64,000 bases of DNA from Primulina eburnea. Taxonomy: Eukaryota; Streptophyta; Magnoliopsida; Lamiales; Gesneriaceae. Shown in pieces: positions 2,434 through 49,760 of the stretch (its first letter is position 1; each line of letters opens with the position of its first letter). Location: contig NC_133101.1 in the NCBI RefSeq assembly GCF_022965805.1, positions 45,297,642 through 45,361,641 on the forward strand, given 5' to 3'. The notes under the pieces were generated by a model, which did not search any database, was not told where the DNA came from, and saw nothing but the letters and a program-made list of their open reading frames with translations. A program made the translations under genes and the position numbers.

Positions 2434-2813
2434 GTATATATAATCGACTGAGTTCAACGTTCACAATCAGAGAAGTCTTCAGATAACTGATACAATCAGC
2501 TTTATTACCGAAACAAGTTCCTGCAGAAAAGCTATAAAACAATCAGTCTTATTTTATACTTAATTGGGTAATATGCATTAAATGACTCCGTATAGTATTT
2601 AATGCTGCAATTAATACTAGTATTAGGAACTCTTTAACGGTAACAATTAAGATAGCAACGTTTGAAAACGTTCTCTACTGGTTTGTGTAGTTATCCCTTT
2701 TCTACTGGTTTAGTTTTACTAGAGCATCAGCTACTGATAAGCTAGTCTGTTGTTCTGGTCTGCTGGTCTACTGGTTTTAGTTATCATCGCCACAATAAAA
2801 TTCATATCTAACA
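2434..2813 (-). repeat. Copia LTR fragment, inverted, 5' end only
   Basis: Read on the minus strand from 2813, it starts TGTTAGATATG and follows the solo LTR at 17053-18064 closely for about 375 bases, with scattered substitutions and small indels. Similarity ends abruptly near 2434, where the sequence switches to unrelated DNA. The outer end is joined to EVE-C at CACGG. Its orientation is opposite to the RNase H remnant at 1-600, so the two are probably not one intact element. Bases 2081-2433 show nothing I recognise. Confidence 0.8.
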
Positions 2814-4009: not shown

Positions 4010-4019
4010 ATTTTAAAGT

Positions 4020-4939: not shown

Positions 4940-4944
4940 ATTAT

Positions 4945-22570: not shown

Positions 22571-23053
22571 TTAAAGAGATTAATAATCATAAAGAACAAG
22601 TAAAAATTTTACATCACAACAATAATAGTTTAAACTATCGTATTTCAGTTATTGAAAATAATAATAATTCAATTTCTGAAAGTTTTGAAAATATTCAAGA
22701 TATTTCATTTTCCTGATAATAATCAGAAACATTTATCTGTTTTAAGTATGACAATATCTCAAAAATGGTATACTAATATTACTTTATTAATTGATAATTT
22801 TTATAAGAAGAATTTTATTGCTATGATAGATAGTGGTGCAGATTTAAATGTTATACAGGAAGGATTAATTCCTACAAAATATTTTCATAAAACTACTCAT
22901 TCTCTCTCTCATGCAGGAGGAGAACAATTAGAGATAAATTATAAATTACCAAAAGCTTATATTTGCAAAGATAAAAACTGTATTCAAACCAGTTTTTTAT
23001 TAGCAAAAGATATTTCTAGCCAACTTATACTTGGCCTGCCTTTTATTTATTAA
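22571..23053 (+). pseudogene. EVE-A aspartic protease
   Basis: The frame 22652-23053 contains the active-site block AMIDSGADLNVIQ and, about 60 residues later, the hydrophobic-hydrophobic-Gly flap partner (LILGLPF). In relatives this protease cleaves the polyprotein. It is separated from the coat protein by shifts at about 22530-22700 and from RT by a stop at 23051. EVE-B carries the same domain at 53587-52979. Confidence 0.85.
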
Positions 23054-26081: not shown

Positions 26082-26601
26082 AAAATCGTTGGAGGAAGAA
26101 TCTCAAGAGTTGGTGGAATAACACATCATGGCATAACATGACAAAAGTGGGTGGAATATCACTTTATACTTTTTGAATTTTGTAACCATGTTACTTTTTG
26201 CTTTAATAAAGCATTTTACTGTTTTTATTTTGAGATGGAATCCGGGGTTTCATGTCCGGCTATTCTATCTATTTATAGGACCATTCTGTGTTCTTAGAAG
26301 GACACAGTCGAGTTTGTTCCCCTCTATACTCTCTTGTAAAAACCATTCTGAAGTTCATAAATAAAAGCTTGAAGTTCTGATAACAACTTTGTAAGTTCTT
26401 ATTGTTTTTATTTTCTGTTTTTTATTTTACTGTTTTAAATTTTTATATTAAATAGATTAGCCTGAATGACAGGCTAAAGCATTTGTGCTAAATTATTTAC
26501 CTTACTATGACATGATCTATATTTATTTGTAATTTGGAATCAGATTGATATAATAAAAGATTTATTTAAATTTCTGGAATATAATGTAATATAAGAGTCT
26601 T
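26082..26601 (+). promoter_or_regulatory. EVE-A intergenic region: promoter and poly(A) signal
   Basis: Non-coding. A TATA box (CTATTTATAGGA, 26269-26280) is followed 80-90 bases later by AATAAA (26360-26365). Both are present with the same spacing in EVE-B'. In circular pararetroviruses this layout yields a terminally redundant pregenomic RNA. After about 26601 the sequence changes to the leader of Tekay A. Confidence 0.7.
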
Positions 26602-30556: not shown

Positions 30557-32139
30557 TGTCGCGACTTTGATTGTTGCACTCCCAAGAGCAGGTTGTCCAC
30601 AAGTAATATAATTCGGTGAGTCCGAATATCGTATCCACAGGGAAGCTAAGGTAATTACAAGTCCACTACAATGTCTTTTTGTTTTGTTTTTGTTTTTGTT
30701 TCTTTTTAATTTTAACTGTTTCAATATTTAATGGGTAAATTTTAATTGTTCAAATTTTAATTTAAGTAGTTGAGATTAAAGGATCCACTCTTGGTATTTT
30801 AATAAAGTTAACATTAACGAACAATATTGAAATCCACTTAATAAAATGGTTCCAATATATTAAATAATCATATTTATATTATGTTATAAATTATTATCTC
30901 ATAAATATATAATATATACCAAAACTTATAAATGTGGTCAAGTATTTATTGTGCTATATATATATTTGTAAACACTAAATCAAGGTTCCCACTTTAAATG
31001 GTTGGTAAAACCAAACTAACATTTAAATGGTACCAAGAAAATATTATTATGATATATTTAAATATAGTAAATCAAGGAATCCAAGTTAAATGGTTGGTAA
31101 AACCAAACTAACATTTAAATGGTTCCAAGAATTTAATATTATAATATATTTATATATAATAAATCAAGGCATCCACTTTAAATGGTTGGTAATACCAAAC
31201 TAACATTTAAATGGTTCCAAGAATTTAGTGTAACATATAGCAACAATAAATCAAAACTCCCACTTATAAGTAGGGTATAAAAATACTTAAAGAAATAAAT
31301 ATAACATAAACAATAAATAATGATTAAATAATATAAAACATAGATTCTTACCTTTTAATAACCTTATTATCATGCCAAGAGTTTCACCTTATCATCTCAA
31401 CTTTAGGAAGTTAGCTATTCATTATTCAAAGTGTAAAACTTTGAATATGAAATTAACATGCTAATTATATTTAAATGAAGAAATAAAAGAAAAATATAGA
31501 GAAAAATATTATGAACTCAAAGGTTTGTTCATAGAATGAGGGATATCTCAATACATTACAATGCACCCCTATTTATAGCCAAATTTGTGGAGACAACCAC
31601 AAATAAAATATTATTTTTTACACATAAGTCTTCATTGGTGTTCCAAGAAACTAATATTATATTACACATCACTTTTGAAAATCTTCTTCTCCGAATTTGC
31701 TTCTTCACATAAAATGAAACATGTGGATAATTGAGTTGTCTAGTTTTTGTATTTTTTTCAGAATATTTGACCAAGTAATTTGAGAGATATGGTCAAAATA
31801 CTAGAGCATGGTAAAACTGCCACTCCTTTGGTAACTTTAATTGTTGCTTAATTTGATCCCACTTGTGAGAGGATTTTTATCTCATGCTTGGCAACAATAT
31901 TGTAGATCTTATAATCAACTTTCTACAGGTCCAAGAATCATCTTAATCCCATTTGCAACGCCAAGGTTATTCTTGTTTTATCGAACCTGTAAAAAATAGT
32001 AAAAATTTATAATTACACAACAACTTATATTTTAAACAATTTATTATAAAACATATAATATTTAAACATTTAATAAAACAAAAACTATATATTTATATTA
32101 TAAAACATTTAATTAATGTACAATTTTTATGTTTTTACA
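30557..32139 (-). repeat. 3' LTR of Athila element
   Basis: On the minus strand it starts TGTAAAAACATAAA and ends AAAGTCGCGACA. It holds four units of about 92 bp beginning AAATCAAGG or AAATCAAAA at 30977, 31069, 31161 and 31248; each of the first three contains the short dyad TTGGTAAAACCAA or a variant. AT-rich, without coding capacity. Confidence 0.93.
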
Positions 32140-33342
32140 CCTCCCAACCAGCTTATTGCTAGTCCCTAGCAATTTAAGCGTTAATAGCAGTACAAAACAT
32201 ATTGATTGATTTAAATAGAAATGTAATCAAAACTATATAAGTGTTAAAATTAAATTTGAAAACTGTCAAAGTTATTCGAGATGATTAATTCAAAGCTTAT
32301 TTCAGGTAGTTAAATGTACACGGCCTTCAGAAATTCCTAGTAAGAGTCTCTACTCCATATCCTCACAGGTTAATAAATGTTTCAATTTATGGCAACGATT
32401 TCTCTCATAGAGTTGGAATACAGATAAATGCTCAGAAAAATGGTTTACAGAATGCAGACAGACAAACGAGCCAAACTAATCAAAAGATAGAAAATCCATT
32501 GATTTAAAATCCAGTTGTTCTTATTATATATATTTTTTTTTTCCTGATTTTTTTTTTAACATCATGGAATCAAACTAAGTTATGCTTCTTGACCACATAT
32601 TTATTTAATTTGTACAATGTATTTCTCTCTCTCTTTCTTTTTTTTTTTATTTGTATTTTTATGAGAGAAAAATGGGTCGCAGCATATAACTTAAATTACA
32701 TAAATCTTCAACATCTTTCTTTCTTTCTTTTTTTCTTCGCTTTTTTTTTTCAGGAAATATCAATTTTTTTTTTTTCAAAATAAGAACTCAAGATCTAAAC
32801 AATTGATAGCCTCTCCGATGATCAATAAAGGCTCGCAAGCTGTTTTCTCAATCCTCTCCACTCACTCACAAAATATGTGTGAGTTCAAAAATTTTAGGCA
32901 CTCTTATAAGGTATATCTTGGGCCATATACTTTAATACCTAATTTTATCACAATGGTTAATCACTCAAAAAGATTTCATAAATCATATTTTTATATTGAT
33001 CAGAATATTAAAAATGACCTTTTTTCAAATAAAAATTTAAACATTCTTAAATAGATTAATGCATATTCTAATTTAAATCTTTCAAATATGTAATGTATGA
33101 CATTTTTGCAAAAATTACTAAGGTACAAACAATAAACATGGTTTTATTTTAAAATAATATTTAATTTTTTTTTAAATTTGTTTTTTTTATTAAAATGTGT
33201 TCTCCCCCCAATCAGAATATGACATTGTCCCTAATGTCAAAATAGCTATTAATAAAGAGTACATAATGAAAGAGATATCACCTGGAATTTTATTGAAGAT
33301 AACAAACTGAAACAAACGCAAACCAATCCACGACTTTTTGAA
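32140..33342 (-). other. Athila 3' untranslated region with polypurine tract
   Basis: The polypurine tract GGTTGGGAGG lies next to the LTR start (32141-32150 on the minus strand). The rest, between it and the LOG stop codon, is AT-rich with long pyrimidine runs on the plus strand (32525-32780). I see no gene in it. Confidence 0.75.
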
Positions 33343-33981
33343 TCAATGATCCAACTTCCTTTTCTTACTGCTTGATTGCGACCAATTGATCTTTGTTATC
33401 ATCGGATCAGGCTTATGAACAAAAGCTTCCAAATCATCAATTAATTGATCGGCAGTCGAAGCACAGATGAGCATCCGTCGTGAATTTTCTGAAATGAAAT
33501 TCTGTTCCACAGCTTTATCAAGAAATGTCAACAAACTGTCATAATAATTATTGATATTCAACAAGCCCACATGTTTATTATGGATATTAAATTGTGCCCA
33601 AGAAACAGTGTGAAAAATTTCTTCTAATGTACCAAAACCACCTGGTAGTGCGATAAAAGCATCAGAATTTTCAATCATTTGAGTGATTCTTTCATACATA
33701 GAAGAAACTTTTAATTCCTCCCTAATCGTAACACCTGTAATATTTCCTTCAGCTAAAGCTGTAGGAATAATACCCAAAACCTGATTACCTCCAAGATGAG
33801 CAGATGTTGAAACAGATCTCATTAACCCAATATTACCTCCCCCATATACCAAGTGAACTTTTCTCTCAGCCAATATCTTTCCAAGATTATTCGCTGCTTC
33901 TACAAACACTTCATTTTTTCCAGGACTCGACCCACAAAATACACAAATATTTTTCAATGTTTGTGCAGAGGATCCAGCCAT
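33343..33981 (-). CDS. LOG-type cytokinin riboside 5'-monophosphate phosphoribohydrolase
   Basis: Intact, intronless 212-codon ORF. The LOG family releases active cytokinin bases from their riboside monophosphates in the cytosol. Visible features: Rossmann-type start KNICVFCGSSPGKN (residues 10-23), VYGGGNIGLM (45-54), the catalytic signature PGGFGTLEE (113-121, fitting PGGxGTxxE) and Arg98 in MYERITQM. Oddities: typical plant LOGs have Arg-Lys at that site, here Arg-Ile; residue 55 is Arg in GLMR, where Gly is usual; the C-terminus SSSKKRKLDH is a basic patch that could be a nuclear signal. Cellular plant LOG genes have several introns, so this is probably a retrocopy. It lies in sense orientation in the Athila 3' region. 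Activity is unproven. Confidence 0.9.
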   Translation of the reverse strand: MAGSSAQTLKNICVFCGSSPGKNEVFVEAANNLGKILAERKVHLVYGGGNIGLMRSVSTSAHLGGNQVLGIIPTALAEGNITGVTIREELKVSSMYERITQMIENSDAFIALPGGFGTLEEIFHTVSWAQFNIHNKHVGLLNINNYYDSLLTFLDKAVEQNFISENSRRMLICASTADQLIDDLEAFVHKPDPMITKINWSQSSSKKRKLDH

Positions 33982-34193
33982 GTTTTTACTTTCTTTTTTT
34001 TTTTTCTGCGAAAATAGAGAGAAAGATGAGAGATTTTATAGGGGTAATATGTTATCATGACAAAACTATGGGTCACAGCTGTAAACAGAATAAATAGTAA
34101 AAACAATAATGACACACATGCATATAAACAGTAGTGTGATTGTGGCTCACAATTTTCCTCTGGTTTTACGTCCAGAAACGGCTTCAACGCCTT
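33982..34193 (-). promoter_or_regulatory. Leader of the LOG ORF: TATA box and possible 3' splice site
   Basis: On the minus strand CCTATAAAATC (about 34032-34042) lies about 55 bases before the LOG ATG. It is followed by a pyrimidine-rich run ending TATTTTCGCAG (AG at 34007-34006), a good 3' splice-site shape 24 bases before the ATG. Either an internal promoter or a spliced subgenomic RNA could express LOG. The sites are observed; their use is inferred. Confidence 0.45.
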
Positions 34194-34384
34194 CTATGAG
34201 TCGAGGATATGCTTCCCATCCAATTTTCTTATAAATTGGCAAACAGGGTATTTTTTAGTCGGATTCCCAAGACTATGACGCTCATCTTGGAATTGTTTCC
34301 ATAAACGGAGAAGTTCAATATGCACATGTCCACTAGAATGCATCTCAAGAGTCAATAAGATGTTATCTAAAGACTCCTTACTCA
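34194..34384 (-). pseudogene. Athila accessory ORF, C-terminal piece
   Basis: Open to the stop at 34194-34196 and reading [19 protein letters not shown] to LDGKHILDS. It continues the cysteine-cluster reading at 41947-42070 once Tekay B and one ACTCA copy are set aside. The Met at 34385 is created partly by the LTR border and is not a real start. No known domain recognised. The same 176 bases appear again at 40318-40493. Confidence 0.65.
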
Positions 34385-35832
34385 TGTAGTGACCCGTTCC
34401 AGAATCACCTACTAATCAAAAACTAAGCATGCAATTAACCTAATTAATTATAATCAGAGATAACAGCGGAAATATGGCCAACAACAATAGTTATACAACC
34501 CAATCGAAATCGAAGTCTAGACTAACTCAAAATGAAATATCCAGTACAACCATATCGAATCAAATGGAAAACACTGAAAACTAAACCAACCAGCTACTCA
34601 ACGTCCTCCTCCTGCTCCTCCTGAGCCATCCAACCTGAGGCCTGCCCCGTGGGAATGGGGTGTCCAAGAATAAACAAAACCGAGGACGTGAGCGATAAGA
34701 ACGCCCAGTACAAAAGTATGAGTATACAAACCTATATGAAATGCACATGCTATGATATGATACCAGGGTAGTCAAGAAACAGGAATCACAAAGGATCTCA
34801 AAATGCTCAGTCTAGAGGCGCCAAGTGGATAGTGCCGCACGGTCCAACCTCTGGGTCACTGCATCCACTACAAGACAGACGTGGACCTAAAATGTCCCGG
34901 ACCACCGAAGCCCTCCCGACCCGTCGGCCACTGTGTACTCTCGGTGTCCATGCGTCCACAAGACAGGGCTGAGCGGCCCCAAGATATAGCTTATCTCGAA
35001 AGAGATACAGCTCAACAGTAAAGGCTATCTCGAAGGAGATACGGCTCAACATGATATGCAATATGCATCATAACTCGTGACATAATAGCATGCATCATAT
35101 GACATATAACAATGCAGCAAATACTCATGCAACACATATATGAATGTATACTCAACCAGGATATCTCGGATAGTACTTTCGTACCTCTATCACAGCAAGC
35201 CTAGCCTTACGCAACACCGCTAATCAGGTCTAGCACAAGCCTACGCATCAAAAGCATACTCAATCAATACTACCATGCTCGACTAGCAAAACCAGTACTC
35301 CCTAGTACTACCAAAGGTTTAGGGTTTACCTTCGTCCTTCGACAGCCCTTTGATGTCGATTGCCTTGAAACTCAGGCGCCGCTACGCTACTACTCCTGGC
35401 AGCTCTTGGCTATCGCTCGACCAACAACTAACCCTAGAAACCTTCCAAATCCTCTCAACTATGAGGCAAAATCATAAATTGGCAAGTCACAAATGAGAAA
35501 TCCGAGCACTATTTATAGGCCATGTTCGGATCCTCCGAACAACACTTCGGAACGTCCGAACGCTACGTGTCCATTGGCTCTTGACAGCTCATGATCGGAT
35601 CCTCCGATCATACACTTCGGACCGTCCGAACATGCATGGAAAATGACGTGTCGATCAACACTTGACACCTATGATCGGATTCACCGAACTACACTTCGGA
35701 TCGTCCGAACTCTTCGGTGCTTCCGAACCCTCTTCGGTCCGTCCGATCATGACCATAGCCAAAATTACACCTTAAACCTTCTTAATCACCATTACTCCGT
35801 TAATTACCCAATTTGGAATTCGGGCTACTACA
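34385..35832 (-). repeat. 3' LTR of Tekay B
   Basis: TGTAGTAGCCCG to GGGTCACTACA on the minus strand. A TATA box (CCTATAAATAGTGC, about 35507-35520) lies just downstream of a block of TTCGGA/TCCGAA dyads (about 35524-35750) that would form the upstream promoter region. Confidence 0.93.
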
Positions 35833-35866
35833 TTCTCCCCCCCTTAAAAGATTTCGTCCTCGAAAT
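35833..35866 (-). promoter_or_regulatory. Polypurine tract and conserved dyad of Tekay B
   Basis: The minus strand reads CTTTTAAGGGGGGGAGAA before the LTR. Directly upstream is the dyad ATTTCGAGGACGAAAT (35851-35866), the same as in Tekay C. Confidence 0.88.
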
Positions 35867-35982
35867 CAGGCTTAGAGAATGAACAAAACGAAATAACAAC
35901 ATCATTAATACATCTCAATTGTTGTTGAATACAACTGATACTATGATTACAACTGAAAACACAAACTTATACAAAGCACAAC

Positions 35983-38900
35983 TCAAAAGAGCTCTGGATG
36001 CTCCGAACGCATACGACTCTCTAACTCCCAAGTGGCTTCTTCAGTGCCTCGACGCTGCCACTGCACTAAGACAAGAGGAATGATCTTATTCCGCAACACC
36101 TTATCTTTGCGATCTAGAATCTGAACTGGTCGCTCCACGTAAGACAAATCCGTATCAAGTTGAACTTCAGATGGATGTAAGATGTGCGACTCATCTGCTA
36201 CATAACGTCTCAACAAGGATACGTGGAACACATCATGAATACTTGATAGGTACGGCGGCAACGCAAGTCTGTAAGCTAAATCTCCCACACATTCCAGTAT
36301 CTCGAATGGACCAATAAATCTCGGAGACAGCTTACCCTTGAGACCAAATCTCAAAATCCTGCGAAAAGGCGAAACTCGGAGAAACACCTTCTCACCTGGC
36401 TGAAAATGAAGAGGTCGACGCTTTGTGTTCGCATAACTAGCCTGTCGATCCTGAGCAGTCTTAATCCGCTTCTTGATTACTGCAACCTTATCTATAGCCT
36501 GCTGGACTAACTCCGGTCCCTCTACCTGTCGTTCCCCGACTTCATCCCAGAATAATGGAGTACGACAACGTCGCCCGTACAACGCCTCAAATGGTGCCAT
36601 ACCAATACTACGATGATAGCTGTTGTTGTACGCGAACTCAATCAAAGGCAAATGATCCTGCCAAGCGGGTCCGAAATCCATAACACAGGCTCGCAACATA
36701 TCCTCAAGCGTACGGATAGTCCTCTCTGATTGACCGTCAGTCTCCGGATGATAAGCAGTACTCAGACTCAGTGTAGTACCCAAAGCTGACTGGAAACTAC
36801 CCCAAAACCGTGAGGTAAAACGAGGATCTCTGTCACTAACAATACTGACAGGCACTCCATGCAAACGTACAATCTCCTGAATGTACAATCGAGCCATACG
36901 ATCGAAAGTGAAATCACGATTATACGGCAGAAAATGAGCAGACTTGGTGAGTCGATCCACCACTACCCAGATAGCATCGCTGTTCCTCGAAGATAATGGC
37001 AAGTGAGTAATGAAATCCATCGTAATATGCTCCCACTTCCATTCTGGAATAGGTAAGTTCAACAACAATCCTCCCGGTCGACGGTGCTCTGCCTTAACCT
37101 GCTGGCAAACTAGACACTTGGAAACAAACTGATACACGCTGCGCTTCATCCCTTTCCACCAAAACCGCATCCTCAAGTCTCTATACATCTTGTTGCTTCC
37201 TGGATGAACACTTAACTTGCTTCGATGCGCCTGAGACAATATCTCGTCCCTCAAAGTGTCATCCTCTGGTACTACAACCCGATTAGATAAGCACAGAAGA
37301 CCATTGGACTGATAATGGAAATTGCTATCACCACCAACTAACCGAGCTAATCTCTGAGTCTTGAGATCAGACATCTGAGCTTCTCGAATCCGAGTGAACA
37401 AATTGGGCTCAGATAAAATGGTAGCAACACGAATGCTCTCCATACCTTTCCGATGCTTGAAGTTAAACCCCAACGAGCAACTATCCTGGATGGCACTAGT
37501 CATAGCACAAGTCTGAAGTGCAGAGGCTCTCACCTTGCGACTAAGCGCATCAGCTGTGAGATTCGCAGAACCTGAATGGTACTTGATCTCGCAATCATAA
37601 TCCTTCAGCAAATCCATCCAACGACGTTGCCTCATGTTCAACTCAGCCTGAGTGAACAGATATTTCAGACTCTTATGATCAGTAAAGATTTCAAACTGAA
37701 CACCGTACAAATAATGACGCCAAATCTTCAGCGCAAACACAATAGCTGCCAATTCCAGATCATGAGTGGGATACTTCTCCTCGTGAGATTTCAGCTGTCT
37801 GGAAGCATAAGCAATCACATGACCGTTTTGCGTCAACACACACCCTAAGCCTTGAGTGGAGGCATCGGTGTAAACACTGAAACTATCAGATCCTGACGGT
37901 AACGCCAAAACAGGTGCGGAAGTCAGAAGTCGACGAAGCTCTCTGAAACTATCTTCGCACTCGGATGACCACTCAAATGGAACATCCCTCCGAGTAAGTT
38001 GCGTCAATGGTCTGGCTATCTGAGAGAAATTCACGATGAAGCGACGATAATACCCTGCCAGACCTAGAAAACTACGGATCTCAGCCACCGTCGTCGGACG
38101 TGACCAATTCAGCACTGCTTCAATCTTGCTGGGATCCACAGAAACTCCTTCCTTGGAAATCACATGACCAAGGAATACCACACGATCAATCCAGAACTCG
38201 CACTTATTCAGCTTAGCATACAATTGCTTCTCGCGAAGAATCTGCAACACAATCCTCAAGTGTTGGGCATGCTCTTCCACACTGTGGGAATAGATCAAGA
38301 TATCATCAATGAAAACCACCACAAACTGATCCAGAAAATCTCGGAAGATTCGGTTCATCAGATCCATGAACACCGCTGGCGCATTCGTCAATCCGAATGG
38401 CATAACTAGAAACTCGTAATGCCCATAACGAGTACGAAATGCAGTCTTGGAAATATCATCATCTCTGACTCTCATCTGATGATAACCCGATCGCAAGTCG
38501 ATCTTGGAGTAAACAGAAGTACCCTGAAGCTGATCGAACAAGTCATCAATACGGGGTAAAGGGTACTTGTTTTTGATCGTCACCCGATTCAGCTGGCGAT
38601 AATCAATGCACAACCGCATCGATCCATCCTTCTTCTTGACAAACAAGACTGGAGCTCCCCAAGGCGAAACACTCGGGCGAATATAACCCTTATCAAGAAG
38701 ATCCTGCAATTGCTGCTTCAGCTCTCTCATCTCTGACGGAGCAAGACGATAGGGGGCACGAGAAATCGGTGCAGTCCCTGGCATTAAATCTATGCCAAAT
38801 TCCACCTCTCTAACCGGAGGAAAACCAGGAATCTCATCTGGGAAAACATCAGGAAATTCACAAACCACTGGAATATCCTCTAGACCAACACTACCTGTGG

Positions 38901-40494
38901 ATGAATCAATCGCATAGATGAGGTAGCCTTCCCCGCCCGACTCTAAAGCACGACAGGCTTTCAGAGCAGATACCACTGGCATCGGAGGTCGCGCTCCCTC
39001 ACCATAGAAAAACCAACTAGAGCTTTCAGTCGTACGAAACTGAACAAGCTTCTGGTAACAATCCACAGTAGCTCGGTAGGTAGTCAATAAGTCTATACCC
39101 AAGATACAATCAAAATCTTCCATCTCTAGGATCATAAGATTCGCAGTCAACTCGTTACCCTCAAAATCTAAGGGACAACCCATCACTAGACGCTTCGCTA
39201 ACACCGAATGACCCATCGGAGTAGAAACAGAAAGAATGACGTCTAGAGAAACATAGGGTAACCTATGACGCTTAACAAATCGTGCAGAAATGAAGGAATG
39301 AGAGGCTCCTGTATCAATAAGAACAAAAGCAGGAATACCGCATAAATGAAAAGTACCTGTTATGACTCTCTCCGTCTCATCTGCAGCCTGATCCTGGTTC
39401 AGCGCAAAAACCTGACCTTGGGCACGAGGTCGAAGATTCGAACTACCCACTGCCTGACCCTGCCTCCTCTGCTGAACAGTCGTCTGAGATCCAGAACCGG
39501 ATCCTGCTCCACCTCGCAACTGAGGACAATTCTTCTTAATATGCCCCATCTCTCCGCACTGATAACAAGCTCCTGCGGCTACTCGGCATTGCTCCGATGG
39601 ATGGTTCTTCCCACAATGCGCACAAGACTCCTTCTTCTTACCAAAGCGGAAAACACCACTAGATCGAGATCCAGATCCAGAAGAAGATGAACCAGATTTC
39701 TTGAATGACTGAGATCGAGGCCTCAAAGTACTCGGAGGTCTAGAAGAAGAAAGAATAGCCCTACCACGCTGGAGACTGATCTCTGCCTGGCGACACCGGT
39801 TCACTAACCCATCATAAGAAGTAGGATTATCACAGACAGTGACTCGATCAAAGATCTCCTGATTAAGGCCCTGGAGGAAATGATCATACTTGGCCTCAGA
39901 ACTGCCACTGATATGAGGAGCGAAGGGTAACAACTCAAAGAATTTCTGCTGATACTCATCAACAGACATACTCCCCTGCTTAAGGTTCAGGAGCTCAATC
40001 GTCTTGGCCTGGCGAAGGGCTGGAGGAAAGTACAGCTGCATGAACGCTGCACGGAAATCGACCCAAGTCGCTCTTCCCTGCGACTGAACTATCGGCGCAG
40101 AAGTCGATCGCCACCACCTGCGAGCACGGCCCTCGAGAAGAAAACTAAGGGTCTCCATCTTCTGCTCATCGGTGCACTGGAATGCGCGGAAACAACTCTC
40201 CATGCGCTCTAACCAATCCTCCGCATCATCGGGAGTCTCACCGCCAACTAAAGGCTTAGGCCCCATCTGCATGAAACGATGCATATCGAAACGCCTAGGA
40301 CCATCCCGACGATGACGATGCTTCCCATCCAATTTTCTTATAAATTGGCAAACAGGGTATTTTTTAGTCGGATTCCCAAGACTATGACGCTCATCTTGGA
40401 ATTGTTTCCATAAACGGAGAAGTTCAATATGCACATGTCCACTAGAATGCATCTCAAGAGTCAATAAGATGTTATCTAAAGACTCCTTACTCAT
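35983..40494 (-). CDS. gag-pol: Tekay B Gag-Pol, fused in frame to Athila-derived N-terminus
   Basis: 1503 codons without a stop. Residues 1-58 come from the duplicated Athila flank ([11 protein letters not shown] to LDGKH); Gag begins at about residue 59 ([19 protein letters not shown]). Then come a CX2CX4HX4C knuckle ([14 protein letters not shown], about 310), protease (IDTGASHSF, about 393), RT (FIDDILIYS, about 727), RNase H ([10 protein letters not shown], about 874), the HHCC integrase domain ([10 protein letters not shown], about 1097), the integrase core (VSDRDPRF, about 1221) and a chromodomain (about 1455-1500). There is no intron or stop between gag and protease, unlike Tekay C. 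The domains look intact, so the proteins could act in trans if expressed. The natural gag start has been lost. Confidence 0.93.
40318..40493 (-). repeat. 176-bp copy of the 3' flank inside the 5' LTR of Tekay B
   Basis: Identical by eye to 34209-34384, the Athila DNA just outside the 3' LTR. It lies directly inside the 5' LTR, where the primer site and gag leader should be. At the inner junction both partners share the short stretch ATG before CTTCCCATCC. Best explained by gene conversion from the 3' LTR into the 5' LTR that ran on into the flank; assembly error is the alternative. Confidence 0.9.
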
Positions 40495-41941
40495 GTAGTG
40501 ACCCGTTCCAGAATCACCTACTAATCAAAAACTAAGCATGCAATTAACCTAATTAATTATAATCAGAGATAACAGCGGAAATATGGCCAACAACAATAGT
40601 TATACAACCCAATCGAAATCGAAGTCTAGACTAACTCAAAATGAAATATCCAGTACAACCATATCGAATCAAATGGAAAACACTGAAAACTAAACCAACC
40701 AGCTACTCAACGTCCTCCTCCTGCTCCTCCTGAGCCATCCAACCTGAGGCCTGCCCCGTGGGAATGGGGTGTCCAAGAATAAACAAAACCGAGGACGTGA
40801 GCGATAAGAACGCCCAGTACAAAAGTATGAGTATACAAACCTATATGAAATGCACATGCTATGATATGATACCAGGGTAGTCAAGAAACAGGAATCACAA
40901 AGGATCTCAAAATGCTCAGTCTAGAGGCGCCAAGTGGATAGTGCCGCACGGTCCAACCTCTGGGTCACTGCATCCACTACAAGACAGACGTGGACCTAAA
41001 ATGTCCCGGACCACCGAAGCCCTCCCGACCCGTCGGCCACTGTGTACTCTCGGTGTCCATGCGTCCACAAGACAGGGCTGAGCGGCCCCAAGATATAGCT
41101 TATCTCGAAAGAGATACAGCTCAACAGTAAAGGCTATCTCGAAGGAGATACGGCTCAACATGATATGCAATATGCATCATAACTCGTGACATAATAGCAT
41201 GCATCATATGACATATAACAATGCAGCAAATACTCATGCAACACATATATGAATGTATACTCAACCAGGATATCTCGGATAGTACTTTCGTACCTCTATC
41301 ACAGCAAGCCTAGCCTTACGCAACACCGCTAATCAGGTCTAGCACAAGCCTACGCATCAAAAGCATACTCAATCAATACTACCATGCTCGACTAGCAAAA
41401 CCAGTACTCCCTAGTACTACCAAAGGTTTAGGGTTTACCTTCGTCCTTCGACAGCCCTTTGATGTCGATTGCCTTGAAACTCAGGCGCCGCTACGCTACT
41501 ACTCCTGGCAGCTCTTGGCTATCGCTCGACCAACAACTAACCCTAGAAACCTTCCAAATCCTCTCAACTATGAGGCAAAATCATAAATTGGCAAGTCACA
41601 AATGAGAAATCCGAGCACTATTTATAGGCCATGTTCGGATCCTCCGAACAACACTTCGGAACGTCCGAACGCTACGTGTCCATTGGCTCTTGACAGCTCA
41701 TGATCGGATCCTCCGATCATACACTTCGGACCGTCCGAACATGCATGGAAAATGACGTGTCGATCAACACTTGACACCTATGATCGGATTCACCGAACTA
41801 CACTTCGGATCGTCCGAACTCTTCGGTGCTTCCGAACCCTCTTCGGTCCGTCCGATCATGACCATAGCCAAAATTACACCTTAAACCTTCTTAATCACCA
41901 TTACTCCGTTAATTACCCAATTTGGAATTCGGGCTACTACA
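40494..41941 (-). repeat. 5' LTR of Tekay B
   Basis: Same length as the 3' LTR, and I found no difference by eye. The outer end is TGTAGTAGCCCG next to ACTCA in the Athila accessory ORF. Because it has probably been converted, LTR identity does not date the insertion. Confidence 0.93.
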
Positions 41942-42465
41942 ACTCAGCCCATTCTTAATGAAACCAATTTTATCTTCTCTGTTATTGGAAACACATCCCA
42001 AAGATCTGCATCGTTTTTCACAAGTCCATCTCGCACACTTATGACAAACCCCTAAACTTTTGGCCCTTCTTTTTTCGCATAAGTGCTTTTTCCTAATCCA
42101 GGCAAATACCGAATGAGCAATGATTGTGGAACTTCTCCTCCTAATCGGACCTTAGCTTCTATTACAAGACGAATATCTTCTGGAATTCCTTTTTGCATTA
42201 GCAATCTCAATCTTTCACACCTTCCTGCATAAATTTTTTTTAGAACATTTTCAGAAACAGAGGGAAAATATTTACAAATTTTTGAGAGAATTTCATCCAT
42301 TTTGAAAAGAAAAGAAATGATTTTTTTTATTTTTGTATCAGCAATTGTGGGAAACTGATTTAACCGACTATGAGAGTCACGGAGTACCGTTATCCGCCAT
42401 TTAACCGGGAAAATAAAAAGATTAAGGAAACCTGAAATAAAAACAAACAAAATTAAATGCAACAT
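41942..42465 (-). pseudogene. Athila accessory ORF with cysteine cluster, N-terminal part
   Basis: The frame 42465-42052 starts with a hydrophobic segment (HLILFVFISGFLNLFIF) and then has MDEILSKICKYF (Met at about 42300), a stretch ending GLGKSTYAKKEG, and a stop. One base out of frame the reading continues with CHKCARWTCEKRC, a CX2CX4CX3C cluster that could bind zinc, then into the Tekay B border and on at 34384. It is in sense orientation between integrase and LOG. The protein was about 170-230 residues long depending on its start. I do not recognise it; it is not a typical env. One frameshift plus the insertion make it a pseudogene here. Confidence 0.55.
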
Positions 42466-42471
42466 AAAAAT

Positions 42472-43811
42472 TTAAGGATCAGAAAGGGAAATAAACTCTT
42501 CTTGAAAGATTTCATTTTCCAAAAATAGTTTAAGCCTTTGTCCATTCACTTTAAAAACATCACCATTTTTAGGATTTTCAATATCCACTGCTCCATAAGG
42601 ATACACATGCTTTACAATATATGGGCCTGTCCATCTTGATCGTAATTTTCCTGGGAATATGTGAAGTCGAGAATTATAAAGCAAAACTTTTTTACCAATC
42701 TCAAAAGATTTTCTAAGAATTGTTTTATCATGAAATGATTTGATTTTTGCTTTATAAATCCTTGAATTCTCATACGCATCATTTCTGAGTTCATCAAGTT
42801 CATTAAGTTGCAATTTACGCAATTTGTTGGCATCATCCATGCCTGAATTTAAAGTTTTGATCGCCCAATAAGCTTTATGTTCCAACTCTACAGGCAAATG
42901 ACAATGTTTTCAATAAACCAACCTATAGGGAGACATATTCAATGATGTTTTAAAAGCTGTTCGATATGCCCAAAGTGCATCATTAAGTCGCAGAGACCAA
43001 TCTTTTCTATTTGAGTTAACAGTTTTTTCCAAAATTTGCTTTATCTCCCTATTAGCTAATTCAACTTGTCCATTTGTTTGAGGATGATAAGGAGTAGTTA
43101 CTTTGTGAGTAATACCATATTTTTCATTAATGAAGCAAATGGTTTATTAACAAAGTGAGTTCCCCCATCACTTATCATAGCTCGAGGAATTCCGAATCTA
43201 CTAAAAATATTTTCTTTCAAAAATTTGATGACGATTTTATGATCATTTGTTCGACATGGAATTGCCTCTATCCATTTGGAAACATAATCAACTGCAACTA
43301 AAATATACAAGTATCCAAACGACGGTGGAAAAGGTCCCATAAAATCAATTCCCCAACAGTCAAATATTTCAATTTCAATGATAGGATTCAAAGGCATCAT
43401 GTTTCTTTTTGAAATCGCTCCCAATTTTTGACAATTTTCACAGATCTTGCAGATTTCGTGGGTGTCTTTAAACAAAGTGGGCCAATAAAATCCACACTGC
43501 AATATTTTTGCAGCCGTTTTCTTTGAAGAAAAATGTCCTCCGCATGCTTCTGAATGACAAAATTTAATGACACTACTTACCTCATTGCCGGGTATGCAAC
43601 GTCGAAAAATTTAATCCGGACAATACTTGAACAGATACGGATCATCCCAATAAAAGTTTTTTACCTCATTCAAAAATTTTCTCTTATCTTGGGAACTCCA
43701 TTGCGGTGGCATTTTTCCTGTCATAAGAAAATTTACTATGTTAGCAAACCAAGGTGTAGTAGTAACTGAAAATAGATGTTCATCAGGAAAATTATCGTTA
43801 ATTGGTGTCAT
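42472..43811 (-). pseudogene. int: Athila integrase, broken
   Basis: Inserts element DNA into the genome in intact relatives. Pieces: 43811-43611 (N-terminal entry), 43502-43098 (zinc-domain [17 protein letters not shown], core [11 protein letters not shown] and ISDGGTHF) and 42897-42472 (C-terminal domain, LRSRWTGPYIVKHVYPYGAVD). Frameshifts near 43080 and 42900 and stops near 43610 separate them. It ends with a normal stop 6 bases before the accessory frame. Confidence 0.88.
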
Positions 43812-43848
43812 TTCACAAGATGATCATGTTACTAGTCTCGATAAATGA

Positions 43849-45819
43849 TCAGTTACAACATTCTCGGTTCCTTTTTTTATCTTTGATCACAATGTCAAAT
43901 TCTTGGAGCAACAAAATCCATCGTATCAGTCGTGGCTTTGCATCCTGTTTCGTCAACAAATATCTAATAGCAGAATGATCAGTAAACACAATAGTCGTTG
44001 ATCCAATCAAATAAGAACGAAATTTATCTAATGCAAATATTACAGCAAGTAGTTCTTTTTCAGTTGTGGAGTAATTCATTTGAGCATTGTTTAAAGTTCT
44101 ACTTGCATAATATATCACATAAGGCTTATCGTTTCTTTTTTGACCCAGTACTGCACCGACTGCATAATCACTCGCATCACACATGATTTCAAATGGTAAA
44201 GACCAATCAGGAGGTTGCATGATAGGAGCTGATGTTAAATGTCGAATGATTTTATCAAAAGCATTTTGACATTCTTGAGTCCACTCAAATGCAGTGTCTT
44301 TTGTTAAGAGGTTACAAATGGGTTTAGAGATTAAACTAAAGTCCTTTATAAACCTCCTATAAAATCCAGCATGTCCCAAAAATGATCGAATTTCTTTAAT
44401 GGTTTTTGGAGGGGGTAAATTGGCAATGACATCAACTTTTGCTTTATCAACTTCAATTCCATGAGATGACACGACATGTCCCAAAACAATTCCAGAAGTA
44501 ATCATGTAATGACATTTTTCCCAATTTAAAATAAGACCTTTTTCCTCGCATCTTTTTAAAACTTTTTCCAAATTTTCAAGACAATTATCAAATGTATTCC
44601 CAAAGACAGTTAAATCATCCATGAAAATTTCCAAACAATTTTCAACCATGTCGCAAAAAATGCTTAGCATACATCTTTGAAATGTTGCTGGGGTATTGCA
44701 TAATCCAAATGGCATCCTTCTAAATGCAAATGTTCCAAAAGGACATGTGAATGTAGTTTTATCTTGATCTTCGAGTGCAATGGGAATTTGATAATAACCT
44801 GAATATCCATCAAGAAAACAGTAGTATGGATGACCTGCTACTCTTTCTAAAATTTGATCCAAAAATGGTAATGAAAAATGATCTTTTCTAGTGGCATCAT
44901 TTAATTTTCTATAATCAATACACATCCGCCAACTAGATGGGACTCGACTTGTTAACAATTCACCTTTTTCATTTTTTATCACTGTGATGCCAGATTTTTT
45001 CGGAACTACTTGTGTTGGGCTTACCCACTTACTATCAGAAATAGGGTAGATAATCCCAACATCAAGTAGTTTGAGAACTTCAGTTTTCACAACATCTTTC
45101 ATGTGTGGATTTAATCTCCTTTGTGGTTGTTGAGATGTTTTAGCATTTTCTTCTAAATGAATTTTGTGTGTGCAAATTAGTGGATTAATGCCCTTGAGAT
45201 CTTTTAGTGTCCAACCAATTGCATTTTTATGTCTTTTAAGCATATCAACTAATTTACCTTCTTGATCACTTTCTAGTTTGGAAGAAATTACCACTGGATA
45301 TGTTTCATCTTCTCCAAGAAATGCATACTTCAATTCTTCTGGCAAGGGTTTTAACTCCAATATGGGTGGTTCGTCTTTGTTCTCATATTTTGCATCAAAT
45401 TCTTTCTCTGATCCTGGTAACGAGTGATACCTGATAAAATCATCAAGATCAATTTCAATATTTTCTTTAACAGTTTCAATTGAACAAATATCTAATTGAT
45501 CACGAGTACTCCCTTCTTGAATGTTTTCTTCCACAAGAGTTTCAATAAGATTTTCATCTTCACTTTCATCTCCTTTGTCATGTGGTTGCTTACAAAGATT
45601 AAAAACATTGAGCTCCAAGGTCATGTTACCAAATGACAACTTCATTATTCCATTCCTGCAATTTATAAGAGCATTAGAAGTTGCTAAAAATGGACGACCC
45701 AGAATTACAGGAATTGCATTACAAGCTTCGATAGGTTGTGTATCTAAAAATATGAAATCGACAGGATTTACAAAGTTATCAACTTGGACCAACACGTCTT
45801 CTACCATACCTCTTGGCAC
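43849..45819 (-). pseudogene. pol: Athila reverse transcriptase-RNase H
   Basis: Frame of 656 codons from an internal Met; the natural polyprotein starts upstream. RT carries WRMCIDYRKLN, YSGYYQIPIA and the Athila-type IFMDDLTVFG (about 44610); RNase H carries CDASDYAVGAVLGQ and FTDHSAIRYL. A frameshift in an A-run near 43870 breaks the link to integrase. The box FMDD instead of FIDD separates this lineage from the Tekay elements in the same nest. Confidence 0.92.
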
Positions 45820-46194
45820 TTTAACAGATCTATCAGCAAGTAAAAGTGTTACCGAAGTAGATTTTAACTCGCCTAGATTGAGTTCTTAATCAACCGAATA
45901 TGGAAGTAAATTAACACTAGCTCCAAGATCAAGCAAGGCTTTTTTAATCTTTTGTTCTCCAATAATACATGAAATAGTAGGACAACCAGGGTCTTTGTAT
46001 TTCAAAGTATTGTTATTTTGAATGATTGCACTTACTTGTTTGGCTAAAAATGCTTTCTTTTTCACATTCAATTTTCTTTTCACAGTGCACAAGTCTTTCA
46101 AAAATTTGGCATATGATGGTACCTGTTTTATTGCATCTAATAAAGGAATATTAACTTTTACTTGTTTAAAAATATCATATATATCAGAATTCAA
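45820..46194 (-). pseudogene. Athila aspartic protease, broken
   Basis: The active-site block LLDLGASVNLLPYSV is at about 45905-45950. The frame ends in a TAA at 45886-45888, and the conserved continuation GELKSTSVTLLLADRS follows in frame, so this is a nonsense lesion. The junction to gag is shifted in a run of eight A near 46205. Confidence 0.85.
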
Positions 46195-47836
46195 ATTTGA
46201 TTTTTTTTGTATTTTTCAATGCATGAGGGAATGGTGGTGACACTGTCTGTTGAACCTCCTCTTCGGAAGTTATGGGTTCCACTTTCTTACCCTTTGAAGT
46301 TGATTTATCATCATATTCAGAAGGTTCAAGAATGGATTTTTCCACAACCTTACCACTTCGAAGGGTAATAACAGATTTTACCTGATCCATCGGTTGAGTT
46401 CCAGAAGTTCCAGTTTGTGAATGATGATCCTTGGGATTAGGCAGAGGTTGTGAAAGAAATTTACCTTTTTCATGAACATTAAGTGTAGATGCAAATTTAG
46501 CAAGAGTATCTTTCAAATCTGTCATGGTTTGAGCAGTTTGAGTATTGATAGACTCTTGCTTTGCAATGAAAGAATTCAATGTATCTTCCAAATTTCTTTT
46601 AGGTGGAGGAACATAAGGTGCATAATTTTGAAAATTTTGTTGATTTTGAAAATGTGGTTGCGGAAATTGTGCAACATTATCATTCCTCCAACTAAAATTT
46701 GGATGATTTCGCCAACCTGGATTGTAATTTTGAGAAAATGGTTCAAAATTTGGCCTTTTGAAATTGTTCAAAACATTGACTTGTTCTTGGAGACATTCTT
46801 TAAAAGAGGGTAAAGTGGGACAATCTTTTGTAAAATGATCACTTGTATCACAGATGTGACACACAATTTCTTGAACAGATTTTAATTGACCCTTCTTTTT
46901 CAATTCAAGTGCTTCAACTTTTCTTGCCAAAGAGGTAAATCTAGCTTGAAGATCATGTTCATCTTTGAGAGTGTACATACCTCGACCAGATGTAGGAGAT
47001 TGAATCTTGTTTGATGGTTCGATTGTACCTATAGTGTCCCAATTTTGAGCATTTTCAGCTAATGAATCGAGATACTCAATTGCCTCGTTTGGATCTTTAT
47101 CTTCAAATGTTCCATTACACATAAATTCAACAATTTGCCTATCTTTAGGTGTTAAGCCTTCATAAAATTGAGAAACAACTCTCCAAATTTCAAAACCATG
47201 ATGTGGACAAAGATTAAGCAATTCTTTGTATCTATCCCAACACTGATAAAAAGTTTCTCCTTGTTTTTGAGTGAAAGTGATGATTTGTCTTTTGAAAGAA
47301 TTTGTTCTATGAGATGGAAAAAACTTTTTCAAAAATTGTTGTTGCAATTCATCCCAAGTTCGAATGGATCCCGATCTAAGATTTTGTAGCCAATTTTTAG
47401 CTTTATCTTTTAAAGAAAAAGGAAAAAGCTTAAGTCGAATGGTGTTCATGCTACACTTTAGATCATTATATGTGTTGCACACTTCTGCAAACTCTCGTAA
47501 ATGCATGTATGGATTTTCAGAATCTAAGCCATGAAAATTGGGTAAAAGTTGGATAATACCAGGCTTAAAATTAAAATGAGATGCATCAGGGGGAAAAACT
47601 AGACATGAAGGTGCACTAGTACGTGTAGGATTCATGTGATCTCTAAGTGTTCTTCGTCTATCATGATCATGTTGAGATTGAATTTCATCTTCATTTTCTT
47701 GGATGGGTTCTTCCGCCATGTTTTGTAAAAATAAAGGGTTATTTCGAATGAGTCGACCACTAAGTGTACGTGACCAAATGCTCATGCAAATGCAAATGCA
47801 AAAGAATAAAAACACACAAAAGCAATAAAAATTCAA
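46184..47836 (-). CDS. gag: Athila Gag
   Basis: 550 codons from the first Met; the Met at 47719 (MAEEPIQENEDE) is the better start, because the upstream residues are hydrophobic leader translation. The capsid-type domain carries FHGLDSENPYMHLREFAEVC and DKAKNWLQNL, and RQIITFTQKQGETFYQCW lies in the second half. A CX2CX4HX4C knuckle (CHICDTSDHFTKDC) is near residue 325 of the long frame. The Gln/Asn/Pro-rich tail is typical. The end runs out of frame at an A8 run instead of continuing into protease. Confidence 0.9.
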   Translation of the reverse strand: MNFYCFCVFLFFCICICMSIWSRTLSGRLIRNNPLFLQNMAEEPIQENEDEIQSQHDHDRRRTLRDHMNPTRTSAPSCLVFPPDASHFNFKPGIIQLLPNFHGLDSENPYMHLREFAEVCNTYNDLKCSMNTIRLKLFPFSLKDKAKNWLQNLRSGSIRTWDELQQQFLKKFFPSHRTNSFKRQIITFTQKQGETFYQCWDRYKELLNLCPHHGFEIWRVVSQFYEGLTPKDRQIVEFMCNGTFEDKDPNEAIEYLDSLAENAQNWDTIGTIEPSNKIQSPTSGRGMYTLKDEHDLQARFTSLARKVEALELKKKGQLKSVQEIVCHICDTSDHFTKDCPTLPSFKECLQEQVNVLNNFKRPNFEPFSQNYNPGWRNHPNFSWRNDNVAQFPQPHFQNQQNFQNYAPYVPPPKRNLEDTLNSFIAKQESINTQTAQTMTDLKDTLAKFASTLNVHEKGKFLSQPLPNPKDHHSQTGTSGTQPMDQVKSVITLRSGKVVEKSILEPSEYDDKSTSKGKKVEPITSEEEVQQTVSPPFPHALKNTKKIKFEF

Positions 47837-47892
47837 ATAAAGAAAAATAAACTATAAACAAAATTAAATAGACTTGAAATTAAATTATACTT

Positions 47893-47909
47893 CCCCGGCA
47901 ACGGCGACA
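47893..47909 (-). promoter_or_regulatory. Primer-binding site of Athila (tRNA-Asp type)
   Basis: The minus strand reads TGTCGCCGTTGCCGGGG, one mismatch from the common Athila site TGGCGCCGTTGCCGGGG, which pairs with tRNA-Asp. It lies six bases inside the 5' LTR end. Confidence 0.85.
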
Positions 47910-47915
47910 AAAACT

Positions 47916-49493
47916 TGTCGCGACTTTGATTGTTGCACTCCCAAGAGCAGGTTGTCCACAAGTAATATAATTCGGTGAGTCCGAATATCGTATCCACAGG
48001 GAAGCTAAGGTAATTACAAGTCCACTACAATGTCTTTTTGTTTTGTTTTTGTTTTTGTTTCTTTTTAATTTTAACTGTTTCAATATTTAATGGGTAAATT
48101 TTAATTGTTCAAATAATTTAAGTAGTTGAGATTAAAGGATCCACTCTTGGTATTTTAATAAAGTTAACATTAACGAACAATATTGAAACCCACTTAATAA
48201 AATGGTTCCAATATATTAAATAATCATATTTATATTATGTTATAAATTATTATCTCATAAATATATAATATATACCAAAACTTATAAATGTGGTCAAGTA
48301 TTTATTGTGCTATATATATATTTGTAAACACTGAATCAAGGTTCCCACTTTAAATGGTTGGTAAAACCAAACTAACATTTAAATGGTACCAAGAAAATAT
48401 TATTATGATATATTTAAATATAGTAAATCAAGGAATCCAAGTTAAATTGTTGGTAAAACCAAACTAACATTTAAATGGTTTCAAGAATTTAATATTATAA
48501 TATATTTATATATAATAAATCAAGACATCCACTTTAAATGGTTGGTAATACCAAACTAACATTTAAATGGTTCCAAGAATTTAGTGTAACATATAGCAAC
48601 AATAAATCAAAACTCCCACTTATAAGTAGGGTATAAAAATACTTAAAGAAATAAATATAACTTAAACAATAAATAATGATTAAATAATATAAAACATAGA
48701 TTCTTACCTTTTAATAACCTTATTATCATGCCAAGAGTTTCACCTTATCATCTCAACTTTAGGAAGTTAGCTATTCATTATTCAAAGTGTAAAACATTGA
48801 ATATGAAATTAACATGCTAATTATATTTAAATGAAGAAATAAAAGAAAAATATAGAGAGAAATATTATGAACTCAAAGGTTTGTTCATAGAATGAGGGAT
48901 ATCTCAATACATTACAATGCACCCCTTTTTATAGCCAAATTTGGGGAGACAACCACAAATAAAATATTATTTTTTACACATAAGTCTTCATTGGTGTTCC
49001 AAGAAATTAATATTATATTACACATCACTTTTGAAAATCTTCTTCTCCGAATTTGCTTCTTCACATAAAATGAAACATGTGGATAATTGAGTTGTCTAGT
49101 TGTGGTATTTTTTTCAGAATATTTGACCAAGTAATTTGAGAGATATGGTCAAAATACTAGAGTATGGTAAAACTGCTACTCCTTTGGTAACTTTAATTGT
49201 TGCTTAATTTGATCCCACTTGTGAGAGGATTTTTATCTTATGCATGGCAACAATGTTGTAGATCTTATAATCAACTTTCTACAGGTCCAAGAATCATCTT
49301 AATCCCATTTGCAACGCCAAGGTTATTCTTGTTTTATCGAACCTGTAAAAAATAGTAAAAACTTATAATTACACAACAACTTATATTTTATACAATTTAT
49401 TATAAAACATATAATATTTAAACATTTAATAAAACAAAACTATATATTTATATTATAAAACATTTAATTAATGTACAATTTTTATGTTTATCA
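47916..49493 (-). repeat. 5' LTR of Athila element
   Basis: On the minus strand TGATAAACATAAA to AAAGTCGCGACA; the outer end adjoins TACTT. It carries the same 92-bp units as the 3' LTR (from about 48332). About 20 substitutions and two small indels against the 3' LTR by eye. Confidence 0.93.
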
Positions 49494-49760
49494 TACTTCT
49501 TGAATTATTATTCCAGATTGGAATCAGAATCAATAGAAGAAAAATGATTTAGAATGAAGATTATTACGCTGTTGAAAATCCAGTAGAGTTATTAGGGCAT
49601 CGAAGAGGCTACCTGGAAGATTGAGTCTGATATGAGGTAGCAATGTTCAGAGTTATTACATTGAAAGGAGTTATGACTGGTTCTATTATACATTTCTTTC
49701 TTTATCTAATTTGATTGTCTGTGATTTCGGGGACGAAATCATATCTAAAATGGGGAGAAA
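49494..49760 (+). pseudogene. Tekay A chromodomain end, dyad and polypurine tract
   Basis: Right of the Athila insertion the Tekay A pol resumes with chromodomain codons (EEATWKIESDMR, about 49594-49629) among stops. The dyad GATTTCGGGGACGAAATC (49723-49740) and the purine tract AAAATGGGGAGAAA (49747-49760) then lead into the LTR. Confidence 0.8.

Follow-up and report, generated by a model that had tools for sequence, protein, structure and literature searches.

Why does a plant retrotransposon carry an open reading frame (ORF) for LOG, a cytokinin-activating enzyme, and is cytokinin activation what the gene does there? We addressed this question in Primulina eburnea, using a window of 64,000 nt (C1:45297642-45361641) and searches of the 812-Mb genome of 1,224 contigs. 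An Athila element occupies positions 30557-49493 of the window on the minus strand, with TACTT duplicated on either side, and a LOG gene lies within it. We give roughly even credence to the reading that this LOG is an old accessory gene of a high-copy Athila, with a product acting as a nuclear effector rather than in ordinary cytokinin activation. That reading was drawn from the position of the gene, its copy number, its membership in one clade, constraint between subfamilies, losses in the substrate pocket, a basic tail, and an LxLxL ending in most of the listed relatives.

The initial annotation had placed an intronless 212-codon LOG ORF in sense orientation between integrase and polypurine tract of an Athila element bounded by target site duplications (TSDs), and the sequence confirmed each of these points. 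The element is ordered gag, pol, ORF-X, intron-bearing leader, LOG, noncoding stretch, polypurine tract and 3' long terminal repeat (LTR); its earlier picture had to be corrected for a nested 7.6-kb chromovirus, the additional ORF-X and a 145-nt leader intron. The backbone features are:

30552-30556, no strand: left TSD, TACTT (sequence).
30557-~32137, minus strand: Athila 3' LTR, right edge approximate, 98.48% identical to 47915-49489.
32138-32149, minus strand: polypurine tract GGTTGGGAGGTG; the same motif precedes the LTR in 19 of 20 copies.
42475-46215, minus strand: Athila pol (protease-reverse transcriptase-RNase H-integrase) with several breaks (ORFs, domain matches).
46184-47836, minus strand: Athila gag ORF, 550 aa (Pfam PF03732, E 5.5e-21).
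47915-49493, minus strand: Athila 5' LTR (LTR comparison).
49494-49498, no strand: right TSD, TACTT (sequence).

We then determined how LOG is placed in other copies. Searching the genome with LOG produced 1,464 first-look candidates, and the 150 that were scored, a list that favours good LOGs, were all 95-100% identical, 149 of them without an internal stop and 148 spanning residues 1-212. Twenty copies drawn from these 150 best matches had integrase, ORF-X, LOG and the downstream stretch in one constant order (20/20); integrase was partial in L094 and L103, and the start of the LTR was visible in 19. A sample chosen regardless of LOG came from an exact 26-base leader exon-intron junction that occurs 468 times in the genome (control, 0), from which 11 early places listed on C1 were taken. 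LOG lay 178-180 nt past the junction in every one of the 11, and its position was therefore constant in all 31 copies read for LOG. A gene confined to this single copy, the finding that would have undone the earlier proposal, is contradicted by these data, and a later separate insertion of LOG is ruled out by the shared place. All 212 codons were open in only 3 of the 11 junction-chosen copies; one more matched residues 1-200, and the remainder had stops, frame breaks or truncations. The constant place in 11 of 11 copies together with 3 of 11 open frames demonstrates that LOG belongs to the Athila family while individual copies decay. A second subfamily (P0015 type) contributed 80 matches before the list reached family 1, 23 of them with stops (hand count; 150 of 1,384 candidates scored), and in the one copy read in context pol was 82.5% identical and was followed by ORF-X and LOG as in family 1. 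Two further arrangements were observed: L090, on its reverse strand (144-6922 of the turned sequence), carries the integrase-ORF-X-LOG unit twice in tandem, integrase being represented by a short part in the second, and in some copies, not in many others, the LOG frame extends upstream without a stop into a hydrophobic part of the leader, reaching up to 283 codons (L091, 4797-5639).

Selection on LOG was measured between and within subfamilies as the ratio of nonsynonymous (N) to synonymous (S) change. Between the two subfamilies, dN/dS was 0.21-0.24 at a dS of 1.1-1.2 (6 copies compared to the window copy and a family copy), which goes against the neutral evolution that would have counted against the earlier proposal; one pair each gave 0.087 for pol and 0.275 for ORF-X, that ORF-X copy having 2 stops. 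Within family 1, pN/pS was 0.28 for LOG (20 LOG-chosen copies), 0.19 for reverse transcriptase (RT; 17 copies), 0.18 and 0.45 for two integrase stretches (19 copies), and 0.205 for the stretch with the start of ORF-X (20 copies), a value that covers 42052-42465 and is partly noncoding, lying partly upstream of the ORF-X ATG and out of frame. Among 77 LOG copies, for which the neutral expectation was 2.47, singletons numbered 70 N, 37 S and 1 stop, variants in 2-3 copies 10 N and 5 S, and variants in at least 4 copies 5 N and 9 S (singletons versus the last class, Fisher p=0.041; the gapped L150 was left out and 3 multi-difference codons were skipped). Compared with 20 family copies, the window LOG had an average of 8.0 N and 2.1 S differences, a pN/pS of 1.08 compared to 0.18 for the window RT stretch (Fisher on rounded counts, p=0.033). 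It deviates at residues 42, 87, 131 and 137, sites conserved in 93-100% of relatives; its R87 is shared with 1 of the 20 copies and its H137 with 2. Taken together, the subfamily ratios and the counts for the window copy demonstrate that LOG is constrained in the spreading lineage and drifts in the window copy.

These values also bear on the contrast drawn earlier between an open LOG and a damaged gag-pol in the same copy. The damage was confirmed: aligned to the open pol frame of another copy, gag-pol falls into 4 pieces that are spread over 3 frames and contain 4 stops, some of which may come from alignment overrun beyond a frame break. The openness of LOG lost its value as a sign of selection, given the counts above, and in a copy of this age is weak evidence by itself. 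The LTR pair is 98.48% identical (Kimura two-parameter distance, 0.0141), which dates the insertion to about 1.0 My at a rate that we assume to be 7e-9 substitutions per site per year.

We investigated whether LOG accompanies Athila elements in other species by two full-length protein searches, from which the best 120 of 7,930 and the best 120 of 7,997 matches were used. The best 120 of 7,930 included many Reevesia, Diplodiscus and Xanthoceras rows, few from Populus, and a Pterospermum cluster of 327 members. Of 40 longer LOG-containing gene models, 24 matched the gag-to-ORF-X interval of the window Athila, from P. eburnea, P. tabacum, Citrus sinensis, C. x changshan-huyou, Acer saccharum and A. 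negundo; the match was confined to ORF-X in P0238 and P0241 and to a single weak stretch in P0240. The Xanthoceras model P0002, which has two LOG parts, showed a 29-residue match to the Athila interval. Domain scans of 10 of the 24 models found RT/RNase H, integrase or both ahead of LOG in 9, LOG coming first in P0240. Primulina integrase stretches were 89-100% identical to the window pol, with one exception at 71%, and the better-aligned Citrus models were about 70-73% identical in RT and 65-75% in integrase, values being lower in models that skip parts. The gene models are automatic, and their exon joins are no evidence of splicing. For Reevesia, Diplodiscus, Populus, Pterospermum, Melia, Parasponia and Rehmannia, Athila linkage of LOG is suggested by clade membership and, for some, by copy number.

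The origin of the gene was examined with trees. The tree of element LOGs with host LOGs proposed earlier placed the former in one clade beside the sampled host LOGs, the 42 element-type and 25 host rows being split at 100/100. With 17 bacterial LOGs added (picked from 80 loci kept of 547 confirmed), the plant side had 99/93 support and element-type plus Xanthoceras rows 100/97, Xanthoceras being the first branch; host rows in both trees were of the LOG1/3/7/8 types only. A plant LOG was probably the source, and a bacterial origin is ruled out by the position of element and host LOGs together on one side of the branch to the 17 bacterial LOGs. No spliced host LOG that could be the progenitor was found in a genome search with the AtLOG3-type P0121, for which 150 of 1,241 candidates were scored; all 150 were near full length at 51-53%, many at places already known as element copies. 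Host LOGs of P. eburnea were present among the best 120 of the 7,997 protein matches. A search of viral contigs for LOG loci gave 3 pattern matches, none confirmed. The earlier suggestion that the element captured a LOG cDNA stands insofar as an intron-free LOG coding sequence is part of the element and spreads with it; a recent capture is not supported, since related Athila elements of Citrus and Acer carry the gene.

The protein itself has been remodelled. Its features in the window are:

33343-33981, minus strand: LOG-derived ORF, 212 aa (ORF, Pfam, Protein Data Bank (PDB) match, AlphaFold2 model).
33355-33366, minus strand: KKRK basic cluster, a nuclear signal predicted from the motif; the EAR tail seen in relatives is missing (sequence, family comparison).
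33619-33645, minus strand: PGGFGTLEE loop with the proposed catalytic Glu121 (alignment; site roles, PMC4979012).
33688-33690, minus strand: codon of the proposed catalytic Arg98; the next codon is Ile99 in place of the pocket Lys (alignment).

The coding part of the window LOG has no intron and is in sense orientation relative to gag-pol. It matched Pfam PF03641 (E 1.5e-35), and its best PDB sequence match was AtLOG3, 2a33 (E 6.5e-60). The AlphaFold2 model (mean pLDDT 84.1; TM 0.95 to 2a33 by target length) has the Rossmann LOG fold by prediction and a disordered C-terminal tail. In the excerpts of PMC4979012, the LOG of Corynebacterium glutamicum (CgLOG) has catalytic Arg99 and Glu122, with Lys100 at the adenine and prenyl sites and Glu125 and Trp129 at the prenyl site. 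The PGGxGTxxE motif with the catalytic Arg and Glu is present in the window LOG and in most element-type rows. In place of the prenyl-pocket set Met, His, Lys, Glu and Trp of AtLOG3 and CgLOG (PMC4979012), the window LOG has Met95, Tyr96, Ile99, His124 and Trp128.

This pattern extended to 114 element-type rows (120 listed, less the double-length P0002, P0004 and P0045, with 4 Xanthoceras rows set apart and the window added), which were compared to 117 host rows. The catalytic Arg was retained in 108 element-type rows, the catalytic Glu in 109 and the Trp in 112. Pocket Lys99 was retained in none (Met in 48, Ile in 36, Leu in 30) and pocket Glu124 in 1 (Gln in 57, His in 51), whereas all five residues were constant in all 117 host rows. 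The C termini differed as well. EAR-type repressor motifs have the form LxLxL or DLNxxP. An LxLxL within the last 8 residues was found in 89 of 114 element-type and 0 of 117 host rows, and a basic cluster in the tail in 93 of 114 and 1 of 117, respectively; P0099 ends in DLNLTP. In the window clade (window, P0001, P0003, P0015 and P0023) the basic cluster is retained and the EAR tail absent, and the window LOG has neither form of the EAR motif. On a tree made without the scored columns, in which the clade again had 100/100 support and P0088 and P0070 had no scorable tail, the Lys required one change, the Glu one, LxLxL two and the basic cluster three. In Citrus elements, PGGxGTxxE was lost in 6 of 6 aligned segments, and the 4 that reach the C terminus have a KKYKLDLTLRL-type tail. 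Catalytic loop and tail can thus separate, as observed in the Citrus models P0240, P0242, P0246, P0250, P0238 and P0256.

A nuclear effector could work as follows. A dimer with the LOG fold would enter the nucleus by way of the KKRK tail; binding or hydrolysis of a nucleotide, with a different base or side group, would be retained in most lineages; and the EAR motif at the C terminus would, in most lineages, bring in TOPLESS-type corepressors, damping host transcription where the element is active. The window lineage lacks the EAR motif (the two tree changes being read as one gain and one loss) and keeps the basic tail and catalytic residues, which suggests that there the nuclear LOG fold itself may be the working part.

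Several results weigh against this reading. Few junction-chosen copies are fully open, as described above, and 6 copies from that sample, which was not chosen on LOG, gave a pN/pS of 0.55. In two other LOG-chosen copies with short flanks, L153 and L166, the upstream DNA is rearranged. The 114 element-type rows were selected for their similarity to the LOG of the window, and their element linkage is shown for some species only. The conserved catalytic Arg and Glu in most of these rows fit an enzyme, and the EAR motif is absent from the window's own clade. All 4 Xanthoceras LOGs retain Lys and Glu and have the basic cluster without LxLxL. Finally, the EAR and nuclear-signal assignments are motif readings, and short basic clusters and LxLxL tails predict weakly.

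One alternative, which we consider unlikely, is that the element LOG is a nuclear phosphoribohydrolase for a nucleotide other than a cytokinin precursor, acting on a pool or signal that would aid reverse transcription or defence evasion, its EAR motif being incidental. The catalytic core present in most rows and the pocket having changed once at each of two sites would fit such an enzyme, as would the absence of the EAR motif from the window lineage despite a LOG dN/dS of about 0.2 between its two subfamilies; the loss of the catalytic loop in the Citrus lineage and the LxLxL tail in 89 of 114 rows do not. A working cytokinin-activating enzyme, raising active cytokinin where expressed and favouring dividing cells as the initial annotation proposed, seems to us improbable. 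The LOG fold of the predicted model and the proposed catalytic Arg (108/114) and Glu (109/114) are consistent with it, and the basal Xanthoceras rows have all five pocket residues in 4 of 4 cases, which argues that the ancestor was probably canonical. This idea is weakened by the replacement of two of five prenyl-pocket residues in nearly all listed element-type LOGs (Lys in 114 of 114, pocket Glu in 113 of 114), by the Citrus elements that lack PGGxGTxxE yet keep the gene, and by the differences of the window at residues 42, 87, 131 and 137 (93-100% conserved). That LOG is a functionless passenger amplified with the element was already disfavoured and is very improbable: the drift of the window copy (8.0 N versus 2.1 S), the 8 of 11 junction-chosen copies not open over 212 codons and the 23 of 80 subfamily-2 matches with stops would suit it, against a dN/dS of 0.21-0.24 between subfamilies at a dS of 1.1-1.2, 5 N to 9 S among variants in at least 4 copies versus 70 to 37 among singletons (p=0.041), and retention of the gene in Primulina, Citrus and Acer elements.

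The leader upstream of LOG contains an intron:

34006-34150, minus strand: 145-nt GT-AG intron in the LOG leader (sequence), exactly absent from 3 of 78 distinct copies.

It reads GTGAGC...TTTTCGCAG at 34150-34006 and was standard in 69 of 78 distinct family copies. The exact intron stretch was absent in L102, L125 and L128, at three genomic places. Another three, L106, L123 and L149, retain it with an altered donor or acceptor motif; L153 and L166 are rearranged at the leader, and in L129 the missing stretch begins at a different GT and ends at the same acceptor. Subfamily 2 retains GTGAGCCACAATC (GTGAGCC donor) and ACAG ahead of its LOG. The simplest reading of the three intron-free copies, judged from their sequences, would be reverse transcription of spliced RNA; a single event with subsequent amplification and a deletion reaching into the A-run are possible alternatives.

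Between integrase and LOG, the element carries ORF-X, which in the window is split by a second element:

34194-34384, minus strand: 3' part of ORF-X, beyond the nested insertion (sequence).
34385-41941, minus strand: nested Tekay-type chromovirus with TSD TGAGT (repeats, domains); ORF-X is unbroken here in 20 of 20 copies.
41942-42300, minus strand: 5' part of ORF-X, frame broken in the window copy, Cys-rich, viral NABP-like (sequence, Pfam).

ORF-X encodes a Cys-rich protein (in L091, at 4245-4790), and both subfamily 2 and gene models of Citrus contain related sequence. Two copies scored above the Carla_C4 cut-off of 20.9 bits (L091, 30.9; L098, 30.6) over profile positions 38-78 of 91 only, the Citrus pieces and the window piece fell below it, and open ORF-X copies scored 18.8 and 22.1 bits for Viral_NABP (cut-off, 23). 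We therefore describe ORF-X as viral NABP-like and not as a proven homolog. A Pfam scan gave no env-like or ATHILA-domain match for LOG, ORF-X or the 42052-42465 frame; hydrophobic stretches are present in that frame and in some leaders. It is possible, though we think it doubtful, that env was replaced by a two-gene host-directed module, comprising a plant-virus-type Cys-rich nucleic-acid-binding protein (NABP) and a spliced-leader nuclear LOG whose nucleotide pocket is remodelled and which in most lineages would recruit TOPLESS by its EAR tail. If true, an endogenous element would have turned a hormone enzyme into a modulator of transcription or silencing that is kept across rosids and asterids.

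The capture of LOG by LTR elements as such was partly known before. Excerpts of PMC9289625, which cites Steinbauerova et al. 2011, report YgdH/LOG domains in Ty3/gypsy consensus elements of Citrus and Populus, the same type of domain inside LTR retrotransposons as here; those excerpts contain no Athila placement, position, pocket change, nuclear or EAR tail, splicing, selection test or Primulina. They also describe a Phalaenopsis Gypsy element with an AlkB RNA demethylase, likewise an extra enzyme gene, but of another enzyme and with its activity assayed. Athila elements in which pol is followed by an env-like ORF (PMC7264820) share the backbone and likewise have an additional sense ORF separating integrase from the 3' LTR; unlike in those, LOG and the viral NABP-like ORF occupy that place here. 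The plant enzymes AtLOG3 and AtLOG8 have the fold, PGGxGTxxE and proposed Arg and Glu in common with the element LOG (50% identical to AtLOG3 when the structures are matched), whereas the latter has no coding introns, a replaced pocket Lys and Glu, a basic or EAR tail, and is repetitive. EAR-motif effectors of plant pathogens would offer a parallel, with an LxLxL-type motif in a predicted nuclear protein, here inside a retrotransposon LOG. New here are the leader intron absent in three copies and the viral NABP-like ORF; no description of an EAR-tailed or pocket-changed element LOG, or of ORF-X, was found in the literature as covered by titles and abstract openings, with subscription papers mostly absent.

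Genes captured by retrotransposons are usually thought to be short-lived. LOG has been kept in an Athila lineage of asterids (Primulina) and rosids (Citrus, Acer), with constraint, clade-wide pocket changes and tails that predict nuclear action, which makes it testable whether plant retroelements use hormone-enzyme derivatives or corepressor motifs against host control. It also calls for caution, as a gene model annotated as LOG in a plant genome may belong to an element.

With regard to classification, the element has the Ty3/gypsy order, gag and pol with RT-RNase H ahead of integrase, and a domain scan found no chromodomain match in the scanned pieces. The name Athila is our assumption from the LTR, the primer-binding-site-like CGCCGTTGCCGGGGA after the 5' LTR and the gag type. 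The nested chromovirus, which we take to be Tekay, makes up 7.6 kb of the Athila interval and is inserted in ORF-X; all 20 copies have ORF-X unbroken, with the 5-base overlap expected at an empty Tekay site. After its 5' LTR, at 40318-40494, a 177-bp exact copy of the Athila flank replaces the expected leader, and because of this copy the 1503-codon gag-pol frame of the Tekay-type element begins with sequence of the Athila ORF-X. It could have arisen by conversion, by duplication or through a fault in the assembly.

Elsewhere in the window, direct repeats at 4945-7656 and 12984-15695 are 99.67% identical with Tekay-type-pol-like DNA between them, perhaps another young LTR element. Two sets of long inverted repeats at 94-96% identity pair 20894-24305 with 54968-51608 and 24221-26600 with 62540-60158.

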